Positions 1,868 to 26,209 of a DNA stretch of 64,000 bases are shown piece by piece. Made by a program: the position numbers and the translations under genes. Numbering within the stretch: the first letter of the stretch is position 1; each line of letters begins with the position of its first letter. The notes beneath the pieces were generated by a model, which saw only the letters and a list, made by a program, of their open reading frames with translations, searched no databases and was not told the origin of the DNA. Location: assembly GCA_026398275.1 (NCBI GenBank), contig JAPLTF010000026.1, positions 1-64,000 on the forward strand, in the 5' to 3' direction. This DNA comes from Verrucomicrobiota bacterium (GTDB taxonomy: Bacteria; Verrucomicrobiota; Verrucomicrobiia; Chthoniobacterales; Terrimicrobiaceae).

Positions 1868-4258
1868 TCACTCGTAAGTCCCGCGCGTGACGCCGATCTG
1901 GCTTTTGGCCTTCAGGCTTTTCCAGAGGGCGGCCCCGTCAATTTTTCCGGAGAGGAGGGATTGGTAGGCGCCGATGACATGGCGGGCTTGGTCCGCGGAT
2001 TCTTCAAGGAGTTCGACGCGGAAGTGCCGGAGGCCGGCTGAGAAAAAATCCTGGAAAAATCCTGCCCCGGACTGTGGCACGGCATGGAAGAGGGTGTTCC
2101 GGCATCCGACGTCGGCGCGGAGCGGATGCTCCATACCCACGCGGTCGCGGAGGTGGACGCGGTGGAGATCGCACGGTCTACCGCAGTTCGTGTGATCCGT
2201 TCCTTCGGAAAGGAACGCTGCAAAAACACAGTGCTCCATGTGAAACATCGGCATGTGGTGATGGATGGTCAGCTCGAACCAGTCGGGCGGGGCGGCTTTC
2301 AGGAGGGCAAGAATCTGCGGGAGGTTCAGATCGTGCGAGATCGTGGCCCGCTCGATGCCCATCCGGTGAAAGACGGAGGCGGTGACGGGGTTCGCGACGT
2401 TCAGGGAAAAATCCCCGATCCGGCGCAGCGGGCTTTGGGCAAAATGCGAGATGCCTCCGACGTTGCGGATGACGACTCCGTCCGGGTTGGCATTTTCGAT
2501 GAGCTTGAAAAATCCCTCCTCGCCGGCCTTCTGGATGCGCGGTGTGGCGAGGAAGATCTGCGCCGCGCCAGCTTCCCGGACGGCGGCAACCGCGTCCTTG
2601 TAGCGGCGGATGTCCTCGTAGTCCACGGCCACCGTGGCGATCCCGGAATCCAGCGCCGCGCCAAGCTGCTCCTGCGAGCGGCAGAGAATCATGAGCTGAG
2701 GGGCAGTTGCGGACGGCGTGATCGTGCGCGGGAGAATCGACTCCAGCGACGTCTTGGGAGCGGTGTCCCGGATGGCGAGGCGCAGGACCATTTCGCGGCG
2801 GAGCCGGTTGAGCTCGGCGAGCGGGAGAATGACATCGCCTTCGAGGTCATTGCGGATTTCGCCCAGAATGAACGGCGTCTCCCCGAGCTTGCCGAGCTGA
2901 GCGCGGAGGGATTCCTCCGTCAGCGGGCGGGTGCGGGCCGGCTCGAGAGCGATGCCGGATTCCAACACGACGCCGCGGCATTCCAAAACCAGCGGACAGC
3001 CCGCCCGGCCGCTCACGGCAAAATCGAGCGACGGCAGATTTTCGTGCCGGGCATCAAGCTTGCCGGCATAGGTTTTTCTGAGTTCGCGGTTGAGTGCCGG
3101 ATCGTCCGTTTTCCAAACCCGCGTGCCCGGAGGGATGGCGGGGAAATCGAGTTTGCCGTGCTCGAAGTAGAGATCGCTTCTGCGGATCTCGAAAATCCTG
3201 CCGCCCTGCTCGTGGTCGGTGTCTCCGCCGGTGTCGAAAACCACCCCGTCTCCGGGCTTCAATTCGACCGCCGCGGCATCCAGCCCGACGTGGTCGCCGG
3301 CGGCCCGCGAAACCATTCCCACAAAGGCTCCGCGCTTTTTTCCAAACCGCGCGCCGACGAGCTCCTGGTGGTTGACCCCGTGGAGCCATCCGCTGGAGAG
3401 GCCGCGCGAAAACGTCATCTCGAGACGGTATTGGTCGTCGCGCGTGAGCGGGGTCGACTGTCCTGCCAGCGCGGCATCGATTGCCTTGCGATAGACGGCC
3501 GTGACCGCCGCCACATATTCCGGAGATTTTAAGCGGCCTTCGATTTTGAAACTCACGACCCCACGCGCGATCAGGTCGGGGATTTCCCGGACGGCGGCCA
3601 GGTCCTGCGGGGAGAGGAGGTATTTTTTCTCGCCAAGATCGCGGAGCGCACCATCGACCACCAGCTCGTAGGGCATCCGGCACGCCTGCGCACATTCGCC
3701 GCGGTTCGCGCTCCGGCGTCCGAGCGCCTCGCTCGTGAGGCACTGCCCCGAGTAGGCGACGCAGAGCGCCCCGTGCACAAAAACCTCGAGCGGCAGAACC
3801 GGCGGAAATTTCTCCAGCTCGCGGAGCGAGAGCTCACGCGCAAGGACGACCTGCCGGACCCCGAGCGATTCGGCAAAGCGGACGCCCTCCGGCGAGGTGA
3901 CGGTCATCTGGGTCGAGGCATGGACGCGCAGATCCGGAAACATCCGCCTCGAGATTTCCGCCAGCCCGACATCCTGGATGATCACCGCATCGACACCGGA
4001 AGAATGGAGGAGCTGCAACTCGGAAACCGCATCCGGCAGCTCGTCCGTGAAGATCAGGACGTTCAGCGCGACATACGCCTTCACGCCGTGGCTGTGGAGA
4101 AACGCGACCAGTTCCGGGAGCTCGTCATTGCGGAAATTGTCCGCGCGCATGCGGGCGTTGAACCGCGGCATGCCGAAATAGACGGCGTCCGCCCCGTTCG
4201 CCACCGCGGCCCGCAGGCAATCCCAATCCCCCGCCGGGGCAAGCAGTTCCACCGGCAT
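1868..4258 (-). CDS. U32 family peptidase / RlhA-like protein
   Basis: 796 aa; MPVELLAPAGDWDCLRAAVANGADAVYFG and GQCLTSEALGRRSANRGECAQACRMPYELV are U32 signatures. Confidence 0.88.
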   Translation of the reverse strand: MPVELLAPAGDWDCLRAAVANGADAVYFGMPRFNARMRADNFRNDELPELVAFLHSHGVKAYVALNVLIFTDELPDAVSELQLLHSSGVDAVIIQDVGLAEISRRMFPDLRVHASTQMTVTSPEGVRFAESLGVRQVVLARELSLRELEKFPPVLPLEVFVHGALCVAYSGQCLTSEALGRRSANRGECAQACRMPYELVVDGALRDLGEKKYLLSPQDLAAVREIPDLIARGVVSFKIEGRLKSPEYVAAVTAVYRKAIDAALAGQSTPLTRDDQYRLEMTFSRGLSSGWLHGVNHQELVGARFGKKRGAFVGMVSRAAGDHVGLDAAAVELKPGDGVVFDTGGDTDHEQGGRIFEIRRSDLYFEHGKLDFPAIPPGTRVWKTDDPALNRELRKTYAGKLDARHENLPSLDFAVSGRAGCPLVLECRGVVLESGIALEPARTRPLTEESLRAQLGKLGETPFILGEIRNDLEGDVILPLAELNRLRREMVLRLAIRDTAPKTSLESILPRTITPSATAPQLMILCRSQEQLGAALDSGIATVAVDYEDIRRYKDAVAAVREAGAAQIFLATPRIQKAGEEGFFKLIENANPDGVVIRNVGGISHFAQSPLRRIGDFSLNVANPVTASVFHRMGIERATISHDLNLPQILALLKAAPPDWFELTIHHHMPMFHMEHCVFAAFLSEGTDHTNCGRPCDLHRVHLRDRVGMEHPLRADVGCRNTLFHAVPQSGAGFFQDFFSAGLRHFRVELLEESADQARHVIGAYQSLLSGKIDGAALWKSLKAKSQIGVTRGTYE

Positions 4259-7410: not shown

Positions 7411-10400
7411 TCACTGCGCGGTGTCGTAGCCGCCGGCGTCCAGCTTTTTCCAAAACTCCGCCGCCGGTTGATCGGGCGGATCATCGGGCGCACGAAGAAC
7501 GAGCAGGCGCCTCGAGGCCCGCAGTCCGTTGAGCGCCGCCCTGTCGGAGATCAGCATCGGGCTGATGGTCAGCCGGGCCAGCGGAAGAAGGGCCAGTGTG
7601 CGGATGTTCTCGAGGGAAAGCTTCCCGGCATCCAGCGACTGCAGCGTGCGGTAGGAGGCGAGGGGGGCGAGGTCGGTAATCTGCGCGCCGGAAATATCGA
7701 GACTCGAGAGCTGGGGAAATTTTCTCAGGCAGGTCAGGTCCGAGAACCCCGTGTCCTTCAGCGTAAGCGTGCGGATCCGCGAAAACAACGGAGTGATAGC
7801 TGGGATCGCGGACACCTGGCAACCCGTCAGATCGAGCGATTCGAGGGGAAGGGCGGCCATGCTCGCCCAGTCCAATGCGGAGGCGCCCTCGATCCGTAGA
7901 CGGGTGGGCGCGGGGCTGAGTTTTTTTGCCGGGGAGAGATTCGAAAGGTTTTCGATCCCCGAAATCTGAAGTTCCCGGCCGCCGCCGGGGCTGCTCTGAT
8001 ATTTCACCTGGCCGACCCCTCCGTTGGCGGCAATCAGATCCACTGTGATTTCCGTCTGGCCGGGGATCCGATCCGTCGGGCTCGGTCCGAACGCGGATTT
8101 CCTGGCGATCGTCTTGCCGTCAAAAAATTTAATGATCGCCGCGGTGACCTGGTCGGCGGACGATCCGGAGTTTTCCAGCAGCATCGCCGTGTTTCTAAAC
8201 CGGTCGCTGGGGGTTTTCAGGGCCTGATCGCAGATCGCGGCCAGGGCGGCGGGATTGTCCGGACCGAGAAGATCCGGCTTCTGCTCCGACCGGCGGACCT
8301 CCGCACATTTTGCCGCCGTGGCGAACGCCTCCTTCGCCTGCGCCACCTCCATGCAGGAGAGATGGTAGCGGCCCTTCAAGATCCAGGCCGGAGTGAAGGT
8401 GGAATCCGCGAGGAGCGCTCCAGAGACCATCTCCAAGCCGTCGCTGATCTTGGCCTGGATGAACTCCGGATTCTTCTCCCGGCGGGTGATCTCCATGGGC
8501 AGCTCGTTGAAAAATTGGATGAGCGCCGAGTCGGTCGCCCGCCGGGCCTGCTGAAATGCGATCTCGTCCTCCTGGACGGGCGGACGGCGGAACGGCTGCC
8601 ACTCGGGCTCGCGAGGCTGCGACATCGCGTCCTCCAGTTCTTGGACTTTTTTCTGGGCTTCGGTGAGCTCTCCCGTGAGCTGTTTGCCCTTCCCTGCCAG
8701 AGCCTCCTTTTCCTTCTCGACCGCTTGCTTCTCCTTCTCGACGGCTTCGCGCTTCAGTTTTTCGTCCTCGGTTTCTTTTACAGCAACGGATTTCGCCAGC
8801 TCCGCTTTGGTTTGATTTTCCAGCGCGGCCAGCGCCTTCTGCTTCGATTCATCCGCCGCCAGCATCGCGGCCTCGGCCTGGCTCTTTCGCTCCTCGGCTT
8901 TCAGTTCGTTTTTCACCGCCAGATCCTTTTGTGTCCGGGCCTCTGCCAGCGCATCCTCCGCGACCTTGGCCCGCTCGGTGATCTTCCAAAATGCGGCGAT
9001 CGAGCCGGCAATGAGCACCAGCAAGGATCCCGTGATGACTGCGGTGACCGCCCGGTTGCGGAGGACAAGCTTTCGAAGCAGATCGATCGTGGTGACCGGT
9101 CGAGCTGTGATGGGCTCGCCCTTGCGGTAGTGTTCGAGGTCGGCTTCCAAGGCCTTCACGCTGCGGTAGCGCTCGACCGGCGAATTGCGCAGGGCTTTGA
9201 GCAATATGACCTCCAGGTCGCTGTCGAGTTTCGGATTCAGGCTGCGCGGGCGGGGCGGCTCGTGGGACTGGAGCGCCTGGGCGTCGGTCACGATATTACC
9301 CGTGGCCTCAAAATGCCGCCGGCCGGTGAGCATCTGGAAAAGGATCGTGCCGAGCGCGTAGACGTCCGCCCGCTCATCCACCTCCTTGCTCGACTCCGCC
9401 TGTTCGGGCGACATGTTTTCCAATGTCCCGACGACGTGTCCGCTGATCGAGAGCGATTGCCCGGACTCGCTGGTGCTCAGCTTCGCGAGGCCGAAATCCG
9501 CGACGAGCGGCTCGCCATCCTCGCGCAGGAGGATGTTGCCGGGCTTGAGATCGCGGTGGAGGACGCCGTGCTCATGGGCGAACTGCACCGCCTCGCAAAC
9601 TTTCAGGAACATGTTCAGCGTCTGCTCGATGGGGAGGATCCGGGTTTCCTTCGGGCGGGGCGCAGTGGCTTCCTCCTCCGCCTGCGGCGCCTCGTCGCGG
9701 GAGGAGCGCTCCTCGCGCAGGGCGTGGATCAGGGATTTGAGATCGGGGAGCGCGCCAACCCGGCTGCCGCTCGACTCGGCCTGCGTGCGTTCGTAGAGAA
9801 GGTCCGCAAGCGTGAGGCCGTCCACAAATTCCATGACGAGGTATTGGATCCCCTCGAACTCGCTCATCTCGAACACCCGGCAGATATTCCTGTGGGGCAG
9901 GCGGGACATGACTTCCGCCTCGCGCTGGAATCGCTTGAGCTGGGCGTCGGTCGTCGCCTCGGACGAATGCATGACCTTGATCGCGACGACATTTCCATAC
10001 CGGTCCTGGCCCTTCCAAACCTTGCCCATGCCGCCGGTGCCGATGACCTTGAGCAGTTTGTATTTGCCCAGCATCTGCGAAAACTGCGTGCTGACGACAT
10101 TGTCGGTGCTCAGCTCGAGAGAATCGCCGATCACCGCAGGCCGAACGACCCTCAGGATCGGCACCGATTCATCCAGATCACGGGTTTTCAGCGAATAAAG
10201 ATAGTCGGCGTAGAACTCCGTCCGCGACGAATCCTCCTGGATGCCCGGCCCGATGAGCCAGACTCCCCGCAGGTGCTCCGCAGGCAGCGGCTGAATCTCG
10301 TCGCCGCTCCAATGGAAGTCGCTGAGATCCGGCTCGACTTCGCTCTCGGCACGGATCGCCTGCCATCCGTCGGGCAGCGTCTGGATGATGTTGCGGAGGG

Positions 10401-20988: not shown

Positions 20989-21060
20989 GGGTTGGTAGCT
21001 CAATGGTAGAGCAGCGCCCTTTTAAGGCGTTGGTTGTGGGTTCGAGTCCCACCCAACCCA
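20989..21060 (+). tRNA. tRNA-Lys (anticodon TTT)
   Basis: Cloverleaf: acceptor gggttgg/ccaaccc, D-arm gctcaatggtagagc, anticodon stem gcgcc/ggcgt with loop cttttaa, T-arm gtgggttcgagtcccac. Confidence 0.95.
21018..21060 (+). repeat. attL core (within tRNA-Lys)
   Basis: ccttttaaggcgttggttgtgggttcgagtcccacccaaccca, identical to 27894..27936. Confidence 0.92.
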
Positions 21061-21552
21061 CTTTTCTTTTTGCCTAGGGAAACCGCATAAACAAAGGCTC
21101 TACGGGCCTTTTCACCCTCTCAGGCGGTTACGCACTGAAACGCACGAAAACGCATAAAATAGCCCATTTCGTGGCAAGCAGCGGGCAAGTGGATTTTGGG
21201 GCACTTGCCATTTACTTGCCACGAAACGCAACCGCAGGAGGCGGTCGCCGGTCGGGGAGGGCTCGGCCTTTGGGATTCGTGGGGCGCGGTCGCTTGCCCT
21301 CTACTTGCCACGAATGGCCCTCGCCCTACTGTCTCCGCCCTGCGAAAGTTTCCGAGCCGAGTTGAAGTTTTCGGAGCAGCGGTCCTTTCAACTGTTGGAC
21401 TTCGCGACGATCCGGGGCGAGCTGGCCGACTCAACCGTGGTTGAGTCAAAGGACTTGCCAACATCTGAGCGCGCAGCCCGCGAGTTGAAAAAAGTCGAAC
21501 CGGCCAAGCGCCCGGAAGTTTACGCCAAGGCCGTTGCAAAACAAAGTGGAAT

Positions 21553-21891
21553 ATGAGCCGCGTGCAAGCGCATCGCCTCATAGGAGCTAGCGAAGTTTCC
21601 AAAATGTTACCAACTGGTAACAAGCCGACAACCGAATCCCAGGCTCGCCCCCTGACAAAGCTGCCAGCCGAGAAGCAGCCGGAAGCGTGGAGCAAGGCCG
21701 TGGAATCGGCAGGGGGCGAGCAGCCAATCCCGGCTTCCGGTGTTGACCAGAAGGGAAAGAAGCGTGAAGGGTTCGGGTTCGTGGTCAATTCGTTCGGATC
21801 TATCGCATGGCCGGGTGTCCCCGATAAAGTTTTCGGCATGGTGCAGGAGCAGGCGGCGGCGCAAGGGGATGTTTTATCAGTGAACCACTGA
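21553..21891 (+). CDS. Plasmid/phage-type protein fragment (ParB-like or adenine methylase-associated N-terminal region)
   Basis: MSRVQAHRLIGASEVSKMLPTGNKPTTESQARPLTKLPAEKQPEAWSKAVESAGG resembles regions of phage/plasmid ParB-like proteins; an upstream ORF (21305..21556) carries a diverged copy of the same motif. Confidence 0.4.
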   Translation: MSRVQAHRLIGASEVSKMLPTGNKPTTESQARPLTKLPAEKQPEAWSKAVESAGGEQPIPASGVDQKGKKREGFGFVVNSFGSIAWPGVPDKVFGMVQEQAAAQGDVLSVNH

Positions 21892-21968
21892 GCCCTCAGT
21901 TGGCGCTGGCAGCGAGTCACCCTTGGGTGACGCGCAAGGGGATGTTTTATCAGTGAACCACTGAGCCC
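21859..21968. repeat. 37-bp direct repeat pair with embedded palindromes
   Basis: gcgcaaggggatgttttatcagtgaaccactgagccc at 21859..21895 and 21932..21968. Confidence 0.93.
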
Positions 21969-22007
21969 GCCCCCCTCTCGCGCGTGCGTGCGCGATGCGT
22001 TGCGAAA

Positions 22008-22097
22008 TGTTCGCCTCGCGCGTGCGCGGAATTATCGGTGAATGGCTTGGGACCCACGGGTCCCAAATTGTTCGCCTCGCGCGTGCGCGGAATTATC
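22008..22097. repeat. 29-bp direct repeat pair flanking a 9-bp-arm palindrome
   Basis: tgttcgcctcgcgcgtgcgcggaattatc at 22008..22036 and 22069..22097; palindrome ttgggaccc-ac-gggtcccaa at 22047..22066. Confidence 0.92.
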
Positions 22098-22114
22098 CCG
22101 AAATTCCCGGCATC

Positions 22115-22531
22115 CTACCCGGAAACATTTTCAATCCTCACTGTGATCTTGGGAGGAACAGGAACGTATTTTGCCCGCCAACATCCGGCCTTTTCCAGTT
22201 CGGCCCGGATGCCGGAAGGAGTTTCAGGCATGGTGGTTCCTCGCGGGATTGCGCCCTCCTCAATGGCAAGAAACCATTCAGCCGCCGCCCGGACATCGCG
22301 CCGCCGCATGAGTCTGGACATGGACGCACGCGCCCCGGCACGGCTCCGGGCTTTCGGGTAAACCCGCAAGTATGCTTCCACCAGTGGCGCAAGGGTGAAG
22401 CCCATGTATCGCATTCCGTGTTTCACGCACCATCTTGCAGCGTGTCGAACAACCTCCGCATGTTTCCAGTAAATCCGCTTTTCGCCGGAAGGAGTTAACC
22501 GTTTCTGGATATAGCGGATTGACGCTTTCAT
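22115..22531 (-). CDS. Hypothetical protein of the mobile element
   Basis: 138 aa; MKASIRYIQKRLTPSGEKRIYWKHAEVVRHAARWCVKHGMRYMGFTLAPLVEAYLR; tightly spaced with the upstream genes. Confidence 0.5.
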   Translation of the reverse strand: MKASIRYIQKRLTPSGEKRIYWKHAEVVRHAARWCVKHGMRYMGFTLAPLVEAYLRVYPKARSRAGARASMSRLMRRRDVRAAAEWFLAIEEGAIPRGTTMPETPSGIRAELEKAGCWRAKYVPVPPKITVRIENVSG

Positions 22532-22986
22532 GCGGTAACGTTTCCACGCAACCGCCGCCGCAGAGCAACAAAGGGATGCGTTGTTCCAGTGATCCGCGCA
22601 ATCTCACGGTTGCTTGCATCCGGGTTTGCCGTAAGAGCGGAATCGACGGCCTGCCGCTTTCCCTCGCGCGTGCGCGTGCGTGCGATGCTTACGGAAATTG
22701 GCTTGCCCGCATCCTCTCGCGCGTGCGCGATGTCGGAAGAAATCCCCTCGCGTGTGTGCGCGATGCGTTGCGAAATTCCCGGCTCCGCTGTCCTGATACT
22801 CGTGACGGATTCCGCGCCCGCCTGTGGCGATTGTGGCGCAAGGCCAGCCCATCGCCGCAGTTCGTCGGCTCCCGGATGTTCGACAACGCAGCCGTAGAAC
22901 TGCCAGTTCTTCACCCCGGCCAGCATATCCCGCGCGGCCTGTCGTTTGTGATGGTCGGGCAATCCTGCCCAGCTTTGTGTTCTCAT
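22528..22986 (-). CDS. HTH DNA-binding protein with internal ISxxIAHxRE repeats
   Basis: 152 aa from ATG 22986 (ATGA overlap with ERCC4 gene); C-terminal HTH ALTANPDASNREIARITGTTHPFVALRRRL. Confidence 0.65.
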   Translation of the reverse strand: MRTQSWAGLPDHHKRQAARDMLAGVKNWQFYGCVVEHPGADELRRWAGLAPQSPQAGAESVTSIRTAEPGISQRIAHTREGISSDIAHAREDAGKPISVSIARTRTREGKRQAVDSALTANPDASNREIARITGTTHPFVALRRRLRGNVTA

Positions 22987-23462
22987 GGTTTTGGATGGTT
23001 CTTTGATTTTGTTGCCACATCGGCCAGTTGAGCGGATGCGCGTTGAATGTCCTTCACTTGACCGGCCAGACATCGAAAGGCGAAATTCGCGGCGGATTCC
23101 ACCGAGCCAGCAAAAACAATCGGGCAGTATCTTGCCGTCCATGCCGCCACGGTTCCGACAACGGCGTTGTGATGAATCCCACGGGCGGCGGTGCAGACAT
23201 CCCGCATATCGCCCTCGACAACGACGATGAACCGCCCGCAGTAGCGGGATCGTTTCAACTCGCGCTCGAATCGTTCGCGGGATGCGCCGATACAACCGGC
23301 CAGGTCGGGCGGGGTCTTGCGCTCAATGACAATTCCGTCAGGAAGGCGAGCAAGGGCCACGTCTCCAGTTTCGAGGGTGCCGGGCTCGATGCGCCAGCCG
23401 TCCGGGAGGTGACGCGCCCACGGGTGCGGGTCGGGTTCGCGGGTGTCGAGGAGGATTGTCAT
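22983..23462 (-). CDS. ERCC4-domain nuclease
   Basis: 159 aa; MTILLDTREPDPH, LETGDVALARLPDGIVIERKTPPDLAGCIGASRERFERELKRS: ERCC4 GDxnERKxxxD-type motif. Confidence 0.8.
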   Translation of the reverse strand: MTILLDTREPDPHPWARHLPDGWRIEPGTLETGDVALARLPDGIVIERKTPPDLAGCIGASRERFERELKRSRYCGRFIVVVEGDMRDVCTAARGIHHNAVVGTVAAWTARYCPIVFAGSVESAANFAFRCLAGQVKDIQRASAQLADVATKSKNHPKP

Positions 23463-23489
23463 TCCCGCTTCCTTCCATGCGTGGAAGAT

Positions 23490-23532
23490 TTTCCATTTCC
23501 ACGCCTATATATAGGCGCGGTGGAAATGGAAA
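23490..23532. repeat. 13-bp-arm inverted repeat with a palindromic core
   Basis: tttccatttccac-gcctatatataggc-gcg-gtggaaatggaaa. Confidence 0.92.
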
Positions 23533-23582
23533 TTCCACATCCTTTCCACTGGAATTCCACTGTGGAAAAACTGTGGAAAATA

Positions 23583-24755
23583 TCAGGGAATGGCGACATA
23601 AAGCCCATCCGATTTTCGGCGAACAATCGCCTTGGTTTCTGTTGCCGTGATAATAAGCCGATACGCGAGAGACTTGGCGCATCCGGTTTCCGCCATGACT
23701 GCCGCCACAATTTTGGCCTTGGCGATGCCGTCGATTCCGCAGGTTTTCACAACATCAATGACATCCTGTGCGCTCGCCTTGGGTGCGGCGCTGGTGGTGC
23801 CTGTCACCTGTGCCTGCCAGTCGGCAAGGTCAACGGAATCGTCAACGTCATAACTCATCGTTTCGACATTCAAGCGGACAGCGAACGGTTCAAATTCCGT
23901 TGCGTCATTCGCTTTTCCCGATGCCACGACCAGCACGTCGTTTGTGTCCGGTGAGTATGGAGCGAGGTTAATCTGTCCGCGCGTCCATCCTTGCAGCACT
24001 TTGGAATTGCGCCCGAAGCTGCCACGGTCAAACCCCGTCGCTTTTGCCGCTCCCGCCTTGCCGGTCAACGCATGATGCACGATCACGGGGATTCTAGCCG
24101 GGTCGCCCGTGCGCGTTATCCTGCCAATGGCTCGGCAGGTTTCCGTCATGTATTGGTCGGCGTTCAAATCTCCGGTGCCAAAATCGCGGAGCACGTCAAA
24201 CACGATCACGTTGGCCGGAAAATCCCGCAGGATTTCCGCTATCCGCTCGCCTGTCGCCGGATTTGAGAGGGAGACAAAAGTGTCATCCTCTGTTTCCAGC
24301 GTGTGAATCCGCAGGCATTCGTCAAGTTTTGCAAGTTCATCCGGGGTGCATCCCCCAAGCATTCGCGATATGTCGGCCTGCAATCGGCGGTTGCTATTTT
24401 CCGTTTGCAGGACCAGCCATTTCTGGCCGCTGGCCTTGGTTTCCCATCCAATGAACGGCTTGCCGAGAATGCAGGCAATCGCCATTTGCATGACGAATCG
24501 GGATTTTCCAAGTCCTCCCATCCCGACAACCACAAGCGGGTTTCCTTTGACCAGATAACCGTTGTCGAGCAATAGGTCGGCAGGGTCGAAAACCATTGCC
24601 ATGATCTCGCTCGGCCTGCGGACTGTCAGCGGGTGAAAGCTTGTTTCGTTGGGTGTCGGAAGTGCCCGGAAGTCCGGTTGTGCCGTCTCCGGTTCCAGAT
24701 ATGCCGCGTTTTCCTCGTCCTTCCAGACGGGTGAAAGTTGATCTTGAAGACTCAT
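23583..24755 (-). CDS. RepA/AAA_25-like ATPase (replicative helicase-like)
   Basis: 390 aa; Walker A VVVGMGGLGKSRFVMQMAIACILGKPFIGWETKASGQKWLVLQTENSNRRLQ; Walker B VIVFDVLRDFGTGDLN. Confidence 0.75.
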   Translation of the reverse strand: MSLQDQLSPVWKDEENAAYLEPETAQPDFRALPTPNETSFHPLTVRRPSEIMAMVFDPADLLLDNGYLVKGNPLVVVGMGGLGKSRFVMQMAIACILGKPFIGWETKASGQKWLVLQTENSNRRLQADISRMLGGCTPDELAKLDECLRIHTLETEDDTFVSLSNPATGERIAEILRDFPANVIVFDVLRDFGTGDLNADQYMTETCRAIGRITRTGDPARIPVIVHHALTGKAGAAKATGFDRGSFGRNSKVLQGWTRGQINLAPYSPDTNDVLVVASGKANDATEFEPFAVRLNVETMSYDVDDSVDLADWQAQVTGTTSAAPKASAQDVIDVVKTCGIDGIAKAKIVAAVMAETGCAKSLAYRLIITATETKAIVRRKSDGLYVAIP

Positions 24756-25621
24756 TGTGTGATTGCCTGCGGGTTAAAAAAGTAAACTGTCTGTCTGTTG
24801 CCATTGTCGCGGGTGCCGTCCGGCATCCTCGCGAATTGTGAGCGGGTCCACATGCGAGGATCCGCACCCAGGGTGACGGCTCGCCTCATGTATCCGTGTA
24901 GCCTGTCCTCCGGGTGCCCGGAGCAGAAGAACCAGCCATGAATGGATTTCGATCCACTATGGACGGCGAGCACAAGCGGCGCGGAGGTCGCCAGATGCAG
25001 CAGAACCGCCGCCTGTTCATCCGGTGTTCCCGAATCCTGTTCGATCACAAGAAACCTGCGGTTGCCGGTGTTCGATAGCGCATGTTCGGATTCCTTGCCG
25101 TCCTGTGTCCGCCCGGTTCGAGAGAACATCGGAGACGGCACGATAAGTTGACATCCCGCCAGCCTCCCCCGGAATGATTCGCGGTGTCTGGTCGCAAAGC
25201 GCGACTTGGATTGACCGACGCACAAGAGCGGGTTTCCCGGAAACATCGCGTCAACAATCTCCTCAGTGTGCTGGTCGGAATCCTCCCAGCGAACCGGCGA
25301 TGCCTCCCACAAGTCCACCAGCCCCAGCCCGGACGCAATGACGGCCTCCCTCTGTTCCTGATTTACAACCGGCCATTTCGGAGCAGTCGCCCAGACGCGC
25401 GAGCCAGTGGCCCCGTTCGCCGGTGCCGAGTTGAAAGCTTTGGCGACGGCCTGCGGGATTTCGTTCGATGGGTCCGGCCTGCGGGTGATGCGGGATTCGA
25501 TTTCGCGGGTAGCTTGATCCGGGTGCATCCCGGCTCTACGGCACGCATGAGCGGTTCGCATGATCCACGCATGAACGCCTGTTCCCGATTGCGGACATGC
25601 TTCAATGTCGCAGAGTTTCAT
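24752..25621 (-). CDS. Putative primase-like protein (archaeo-eukaryotic type suspected)
   Basis: 289 aa; SAPLVLAVHSGSKSIHGWFFCSG...LGADPRMWTRSQFARMPDGTRDNGNRQTVYFFNP, seen in primase-like proteins of mobile elements; ATGA-type overlap with the ATPase gene. Confidence 0.55.
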   Translation of the reverse strand: MKLCDIEACPQSGTGVHAWIMRTAHACRRAGMHPDQATREIESRITRRPDPSNEIPQAVAKAFNSAPANGATGSRVWATAPKWPVVNQEQREAVIASGLGLVDLWEASPVRWEDSDQHTEEIVDAMFPGNPLLCVGQSKSRFATRHRESFRGRLAGCQLIVPSPMFSRTGRTQDGKESEHALSNTGNRRFLVIEQDSGTPDEQAAVLLHLATSAPLVLAVHSGSKSIHGWFFCSGHPEDRLHGYMRRAVTLGADPRMWTRSQFARMPDGTRDNGNRQTVYFFNPQAITQ

Positions 25622-25827
25622 TTTCTCAACCCCTCTTTCCGCCGCAGAATTTCCACGTCAAGCCCAGCGAGGAACCCAGCAAGAACCCAAAACGACGCTT
25701 CAAGCGGGTATTGCAAAAGCTTCCCGAGGATATAGAGTGCTTGCAGTCCAATCAGTGAAAGCCGCCCCGTGTTAGCGCACGGGGTTCTTCGCTTTATGGG
25801 TCCGGTGTCGGGATGTGCGATCATCAA
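25618..25827 (-). CDS. Small hydrophobic protein of the element
   Basis: 69 aa overlapping both neighbours by 4 nt; hydrophobic segment LIGLQALYILGKLLQYPLEASFWVLAGFLAGL. Confidence 0.4.
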   Translation of the reverse strand: MMIAHPDTGPIKRRTPCANTGRLSLIGLQALYILGKLLQYPLEASFWVLAGFLAGLDVEILRRKEGLRK

Positions 25828-26021
25828 ACCGCCCTCCGTTCGAGGTAGTCGGCCAGGTCAACCGGGCGGATGCGGACGCACCGCGCGGAGAGGCGGACAA
25901 CTTTCAGATGTCCCGCTTTGATTTGCAGCTCCAGAAATCGACGGCAGACGTTAAGACTTGCGGCGACTTGCGGGAGGGTGAACCCGGCAACATCCAGTTG
26001 TCGTTTCGAGGCGGGCTTCAT
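25824..26021 (-). CDS. HTH_17/excisionase-like DNA-binding protein
   Basis: 65 aa; FTLPQVAASLNVCRRFLELQIKAGHLKVVRLSARCVRIRPVDLADYLE. Confidence 0.7.
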   Translation of the reverse strand: MKPASKRQLDVAGFTLPQVAASLNVCRRFLELQIKAGHLKVVRLSARCVRIRPVDLADYLERRAV

Positions 26022-26209
26022 TTTGCCCCCCTTGTCTTATCGCCCATACCACGAGCGAAGTTTTCAAGCGTGTCCCGGTGGTAGCCAAGAACACGAGGCG
26101 CGATTTTTACGAGTTTCAGAATTCCCGACTTATGCCAGCGGGATAAGGTGGCAGGCGTTACGCCCAAGTTTTTGGCAGCTTCTTGCCGCCGGATGAAAAG
26201 CATTTGCAT
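26018..26209 (-). CDS. MerR/AlpA-like HTH protein
   Basis: 63 aa; MQMLFIRRQEAAKNLGVTPATLSRWHKSGILKLVKIAPRVLGYHRDTLENFAR. Confidence 0.7.
   Translation of the reverse strand: MQMLFIRRQEAAKNLGVTPATLSRWHKSGILKLVKIAPRVLGYHRDTLENFARGMGDKTRGAK

Follow-up and report, generated by a model that had tools for sequence, protein, structure and literature searches.

The 120-bp gap at positions 23463-23582 (minus strand) of the window, the 64,000-nucleotide stretch of Verrucomicrobiota DNA analysed here, very probably serves as the origin of replication of a small, satellite-like integrative element, judging by its repeats, its position and its relatives. The gap lies between an AAA_25 helicase gene, whose stop codon it adjoins, and an ERCC4-type nuclease gene, whose start codon it adjoins, and the account best supported by the comparisons is that of a candidate iteron origin to which the helicase would bind with its own C-terminal winged helix. 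Origins of this kind, with iterons directly 3' of the gene for a self-loading initiator helicase, are already known; what appears to be new, as far as the literature search shows, is a RepA/DnaB-type motor with a fused iteron reader, a conserved core and a readable link between recognition helix and iteron.

The gap sits inside a 6.9-kb integrated element bounded by 43-bp direct repeats at a tRNA-Lys gene. The order within the element is integrase, two small HTH/excisionase-like proteins, primase-like protein, AAA_25 helicase, gap and ERCC4-type nuclease, with all genes of recognised family on the minus strand, as listed below.

20989-21061: tRNA-Lys, its 3' part being the attachment-site core (ARAGORN)
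21018-21060, plus strand: attachment-site core, tRNA-Lys side (43-bp repeat of 27894-27936)
22115-22531, minus strand: 138-aa protein, family not recognised (no Pfam or PHROGs match)
22983-23462, minus strand: ERCC4-type nuclease (Pfam ERCC4 1.9e-8; phrog_3490 1.7e-11)
23463-23582, minus strand: proposed origin, iteron array and hairpin core (hexamer density, relatives)
23472-23487: small hairpin just ahead of the ERCC4 start codon
23487-23535: core hairpin, the palindrome 23503-23516 flanked by iteron arms
23533-23578: iteron group adjoining the helicase stop codon, 5 hexamers, imperfect inverted repeat
23583-24755, minus strand: AAA_25 helicase/initiator, its C-terminal winged helix being the proposed iteron reader (Pfam AAA_25 3.1e-17)
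24752-25621, minus strand: primase-like protein, AEP fold, 289 aa (AlphaFold2 model, invariant motifs)
25824-26021, minus strand: small HTH_17 protein (Pfam HTH_17 1.3e-7)
26018-26209, minus strand: small HTH/excisionase-like protein (phrog_66 7.2e-7)
26578-27837, minus strand: tyrosine integrase (Pfam Phage_integrase 4.3e-8; phrog_1 2e-36)
27894-27936, plus strand: attachment-site core, integrase side (43-bp direct repeat)

No capsid, tail, relaxase or HUH Rep domains were recognised by Pfam or PHROGs in the element proteins tested, and a small open reading frame of the element falls in no recognised family. Judged by gene content, the layout is that of a small integrative satellite-like element.

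A first-pass annotation had described the gap as holding eight copies of TTCCAC/GTGGAA in 120 bp, and all eight are present, starting at 23481(-), 23497(+), 23520(-), 23533(+), 23544(+), 23555(+), 23562(-) and 23573(-). The large inverted repeat that it reported has perfectly complementary 13-bp arms, TTTCCATTTCCAC (23490-23502) and GTGGAAATGGAAA (23520-23532), which enclose the second palindrome GCCTATATATAGGC (23503-23516); the smaller hairpin CTTCCA-TGCG-TGGAAG lies at 23472-23487, and the description of an AT-rich patch on a GC-rich background agrees with a GC content of 45.0% in the gap and 61.3% in the window. That description left out a further iteron inverted repeat, an imperfect one at 23533-23578, as well as the 43-bp att repeats at the tRNA-Lys gene between which the element lies. 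The hexamer occurs 56 times in the whole window, giving 0.105 expected copies per 120 bp and a Poisson probability of about 3e-13 for at least eight. When all 6-mers were counted over all 120-bp stretches, the gap was the window maximum with 8 copies, the next unrelated site having 6. The predicted folding energy of the gap strand is -34.2 kcal/mol, that of shuffled sequences -12.3 (z = -8.0), and the 43-bp core of the repeat patch occurs a single time in the genome. GC skew, a check suggested in the annotation, does not turn clearly at the gap.

Helicase relatives were gathered at ranks from family to phylum and from genome and viral contigs. Single-protein scans of genome and viral contigs with the window helicase gave no match; a 20-row alignment was too diverse for pattern search, and a 5-row alignment succeeded. 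A tblastn search against plasmid and phage collections gave no relatives. All 15 relatives in named genomes belong to Verrucomicrobiota MAGs, the closest being a Spartobacteria MAG of the same family as the window genome. Of the 19 first-set relatives with enough DNA (window included), 13 have a significant 6-mer cluster directly 3' of the AAA stop codon, as compared to 1/22 for the region upstream of the AAA gene. The 6-mer is seldom TTCCAC; TTCTCA, GTCTCA, GTGAAA, GGGACA, CGGAAA, AAGTCG and others are found instead. The first-pass annotation had named absence of the motif in homologous elements as grounds for rejection, and the TTCCAC spelling is indeed absent in most relatives; taken literally, however, such a test would mislead because the architecture persists under another spelling. 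What the relatives have in common is a set of inverted iterons surrounding a core, CC(T/G)(A/T)nAGG, directly 3' of the helicase gene.

The core pattern was tightened because the looser form CC[TG][AT]{1,7}GG was uninformative, matching shuffled sequences often (shuffle mean 14/32). The tightened core was found within 250 bp of the stop codon in 22/33 elements, against a shuffle mean of 3.55 and a maximum of 11, and a stricter CCC..GGG core in 19/33 (shuffle mean 1.76, maximum 6); two of the 22 matches (L048 and L084) look incidental, and the core is missing near the stop codon in 11/33 relatives. As an ungapped inverted-repeat search often chose other hairpins, arm pairing was scored on either side of the core with gaps allowed, and the complementarity of the arms exceeded that of shuffled arms (p<0.05) in 24/24 elements, all of which had been chosen for having the core. 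The arms hold copies of the element's own top iteron in nearly all of these 24. In one element (L064), the first 250 bp 3' of the helicase gene hold a tandem unit of about 75 bp, GCAACTAACGATTTCCGCC..., in place of the usual iteron hairpin.

A held-out set of 17 independently found AAA_25 genes included a second clade, found by Pfam profile, that had played no part in forming the idea. An iteron cluster 3' of the stop codon is present in 10/17 of these genes; in the second clade it is seen in most genes, usually as GTTTCC or GTTTCA and with GCCTATA-like cores. The expectation that the exact core would occur in every AAA_25 gene was refuted, only 2/17 of the held-out distant genes matching it, and across the genes compared the core CC(T/G)(A/T)nAGG is a clade feature and not a universal one.

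The gene neighbourhoods of the relatives bear on which protein the array accompanies. In two elements (L035 and L075), the same kind of helicase and array adjoin a Toprim/DnaG-type primase. In the window's own genome, a further element (L028, G000:C30, 5856-8110) carries a primase gene 91% identical to that of the window, followed by 39 residues matching the helicase start and then by a DUF3987 protein, with no array after it; this locus reads as a helicase swap, and a tRNA-Thr is located at 9222-9294. Among elements with the same primase, the core is missing in nine whose next gene is not AAA_25, and it is present in all three checked whose next gene is AAA_25 (L113, L118 and L119). Elements with a Toprim-type primase keep the array and elements with another helicase are without it; therefore, on this genomic context, it is the AAA_25 helicase, and not the primase, that the array belongs with.

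The gene downstream of the array varies between elements, and the ERCC4 gene also adjoins other replication modules (L026 and L027). In L026 (G000:C46, also from the window's own genome), the ERCC4 gene is 73% identical to that of the window. Just after this gene, at 2729-3110, an open reading frame has an HTH-like start and a primase-like part, and between these two it contains about ten copies of GGCACC in 150 bp; this array looks like iterons within a rep gene, as in lambda O. In a 9.5-kb viral contig (L078, 225-8751), the same replication module is accompanied by an integrase, a ligase-like gene, a small terminase and a major capsid gene, which could represent a capsid-carrying satellite or a cut prophage.

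In the AlphaFold2 model of the helicase (pLDDT 86.9), a RecA-type core precedes a C-terminal domain in which three helices lead into two short strands, the arrangement of a winged helix. Its best PDB fold matches are RSF1010 RepA (1olo/1g8y/1nlf) and then DnaB; the likeness to RSF1010 RepA is in fold only, with a sequence identity of 18%. Some relatives carry an N-terminal extension that is DnaB-like by eye. The primase-like protein (pLDDT 87.7) has invariant E-x-D and SG..S.H motifs, and its model is closest in fold to PrimPol 6zp9 (E 4e-4), with RSF1010 RepB' 3h20 at rank 7 (E 0.063). Searching the PDB with phmmer gave no true relative of either helicase or primase, the matches being found by fold comparison.

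The C-terminal domain of the helicase is likely to be the iteron reader, as suggested by comparison of iteron spelling with its recognition helix (residues 358-373 in window helicase numbering). Elements with the same iteron are 48.8% identical in this helix as compared to 25.8% otherwise (permutation p<0.0001); the excess is smaller for the whole C-terminal domain (p=0.0024) and smaller again, though still seen, for the motor (p=0.017). Within the group of four TTCTCA elements, p is 0.0001 for the helix and 0.11 for the motor, and TTCTCA recurs among helicases just 38-48% identical in the motor. The motor nearest to that of the window (L024, 73%) goes with a different iteron, yet the helix of L024 is nearest to that of L080, whose motor is 46% identical, and the iterons of L024 and L080 agree. 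Partial Mantel correlations for the whole C-terminal domain are of the same sign and modest (0.17-0.23), with the upstream control reaching p=0.037 in one case with k=6. In a pattern found post hoc and spanning two separate clades, Ala at one helix position accompanies iterons ending in A (TTCTCA, GTCTCA, GTTTCA) in 7/8 elements and Gly at the same position accompanies iterons ending in C (GTTTCC, GTCTCC) in 8/8; in two elements (L132 and L138), Gly at this position occurs with other iterons. Whether these elements together form a phylum-wide origin class, with RepA/DnaB-type self-loading helicases, a fused winged helix, a CC-TATA-GG core and a readable specificity code, is about evenly balanced.

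The first-pass annotation had left the choice between ori and operator. An operator, at which either the helicase or one of the element's HTH proteins would bind the iterons and control the ERCC4 and later genes, would fit a gap that precedes a gene start, and iteron-binding initiators often regulate their own genes. The array, however, keeps its place at the 3' end of the helicase gene whichever gene comes next, no sigma-70-like promoter is present in the gap, and the hairpin-core design exceeds what an operator needs. This reading is considered unlikely, although the array may have a side role as an operator; array position, association with the helicase and the tracking of motif with helix in relatives favour an origin. 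The strong fold between two co-directional genes could also suggest an RNA element, that is, a terminator, attenuator or regulatory hairpin of the operon transcript. This is quite improbable, as the large hairpin is without a T-run, the gene strand shows no GC-rich stem that runs into a T-run, the sole terminator-like match there is the small hairpin read antisense to the genes, the gap has no Rfam match, and further iterons lie outside the hairpin in both orientations.

A packaging site (cos/pac) bound by a small terminase is less probable still; the small terminase and capsid genes that come after the array in L078 would suit it, but no terminase was recognised in the window element and the motif tracks the helicase helix. 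The least probable of these alternatives is a DnaA-dependent origin in which the repeats are DnaA boxes. TTTTCCACA does occur twice in the gap, on the minus strand within the iteron group 23533-23578, and nowhere else in the window, and relaxed boxes occur in 4/24 elements (6 in total against 0.24 expected), so that DnaA may help in a few elements; however, the other 20/24 have none, and iterons of such box-less elements (TTCTCA, GTCTCA, CTCGTC, GGGACA) are unlike DnaA boxes. Two further candidates were rejected. For a rolling-circle origin, no HUH Rep or relaxase was present among the element proteins tested with Pfam and PHROGs; for a protelomerase site, the palindrome is TATA-centred, but the element has a tyrosine integrase and att repeats and no protelomerase was recognised.

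The origin reading finds its closest parallels in the rep-ori design of SaPIs and PICIs (PMC6092414; Ubeda et al. 2007, as cited in PMC7581432). Here as there, iterons lie directly 3' of the initiator-helicase gene, iteron sequences vary by element, and a primase gene, integrase and att adjoin. The window element matches the PICI gene set in its integrase, att repeats, excisionase-like gene, primase, rep, putative ori and absence of recognised structural genes, and the stretch 3' of a PICI rep gene supports maintenance of a plasmid (PMC6092414). They differ in that SaPI Rep helicases are DUF927 or D5-like, whereas the window helicase is AAA_25 with a RecA-type RepA/DnaB fold. The two iteron sets around a melting region of SaPIs and PICIs have a partial counterpart, two inverted sets that flank a short palindromic CC-TATA-GG core in place of the longer AT-rich region. 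Induction and packaging by a helper phage, a PICI trait, are marked by no deciding sequence feature in the window element, in which no terminase was recognised. SCCmec Cch2 likewise has short iterons just downstream of the helicase gene with inverted repeats nearby, and its isolated C-terminal domain binds the putative origin (PMC7581432), although that helicase is D5-like rather than RecA-type and its iterons number only three.

The oriV of RSF1010 (IncQ) resembles the window element in combining a RepA-fold hexameric helicase, an AEP-type primase, and iterons with a hairpin. In RSF1010 there are two ssi hairpins on opposite strands, and a separate RepC reads the iterons (PMC4434180, PMC4234260), whereas in the window element the reader appears fused to the helicase; no RepC-like family was recognised among the element proteins by Pfam or PHROGs, with the two small HTH proteins as possible candidates. 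In pRN1 of Sulfolobus, a stem-loop directly 3' of the replication gene is required (PMC4234260). It too follows a primase-helicase-winged-helix gene and is conserved in structure while varying in sequence, but iterons are absent, the stem-loop is about 100 nt and the helicase is of superfamily 3. Phage P4 alpha, as described in PMC4234260 and PMC6092414, binds origin repeats through the winged helix of a helicase-primase; it differs in being a single fused polypeptide with a Toprim-type primase and another helicase family. In the RepA-ori of Vibrio cholerae PLE, iterons covary with the initiator's DNA-binding domain, and the two are exchanged between satellites as one module, with the difference that an N-terminal RepA_N domain binds iterons of about 30 bp (PMC8263062). 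In these satellites, the origin is cut by a phage nuclease that mimics the initiator's binding domain (PMC8263062), which by analogy could be a precedent for a reason behind the fast turnover of iterons.

Following excision of the element, the helicase would bind the iterons through its C-terminal winged helix, and the inverted iteron sets would position two helicase rings flanking the TATA-type core. The core would then melt or extrude as a hairpin on which the rings load, and the element's primase would prime the strands thus exposed; it may recognise the GC-capped hairpin in the way that RSF1010 RepB' recognises its ssi hairpins. The steps from binding onward are drawn by analogy from SaPI Rep, SCCmec Cch2, P4 alpha, pRN1 and RSF1010, and a hairpin or priming role for the core has somewhat less than an even chance. 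If this account of the origin is true, one replicon design would be common to many small Verrucomicrobiota mobile elements, in which the address label (iteron) and its reader (winged helix) change together while the motor stays. Such elements would provide a natural series for studying the evolution of initiator-origin specificity as well as a source of mutually compatible replicons, and would suggest that iteron-reader fusion occurs in RepA/DnaB-type motors besides those of SaPI, SCCmec and P4.

Other repeats were seen in and around the window element. Near its tRNA end, two copies of a roughly 35-bp repeat, CGCAAGGGGATGTTTTATCAGTGAACCACTGAGCC, lie at 21858-21968, and many CGCGCGTGCGCG runs are found at 21978-22770. 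Just outside the element, at 28579-29258, lie an antitoxin (Phd/YefM-like, under the Pfam cut-off) and a PIN-domain toxin. TCAAAAGGGTCAGGCCG and a GGCAAGGCCTGACCCCTTCAG unit form direct repeats at 29281-29430 of the window and at 100-200 of L026, and the word GGTCAGGCC/GGCCTGACC is common to the repeats at both places.
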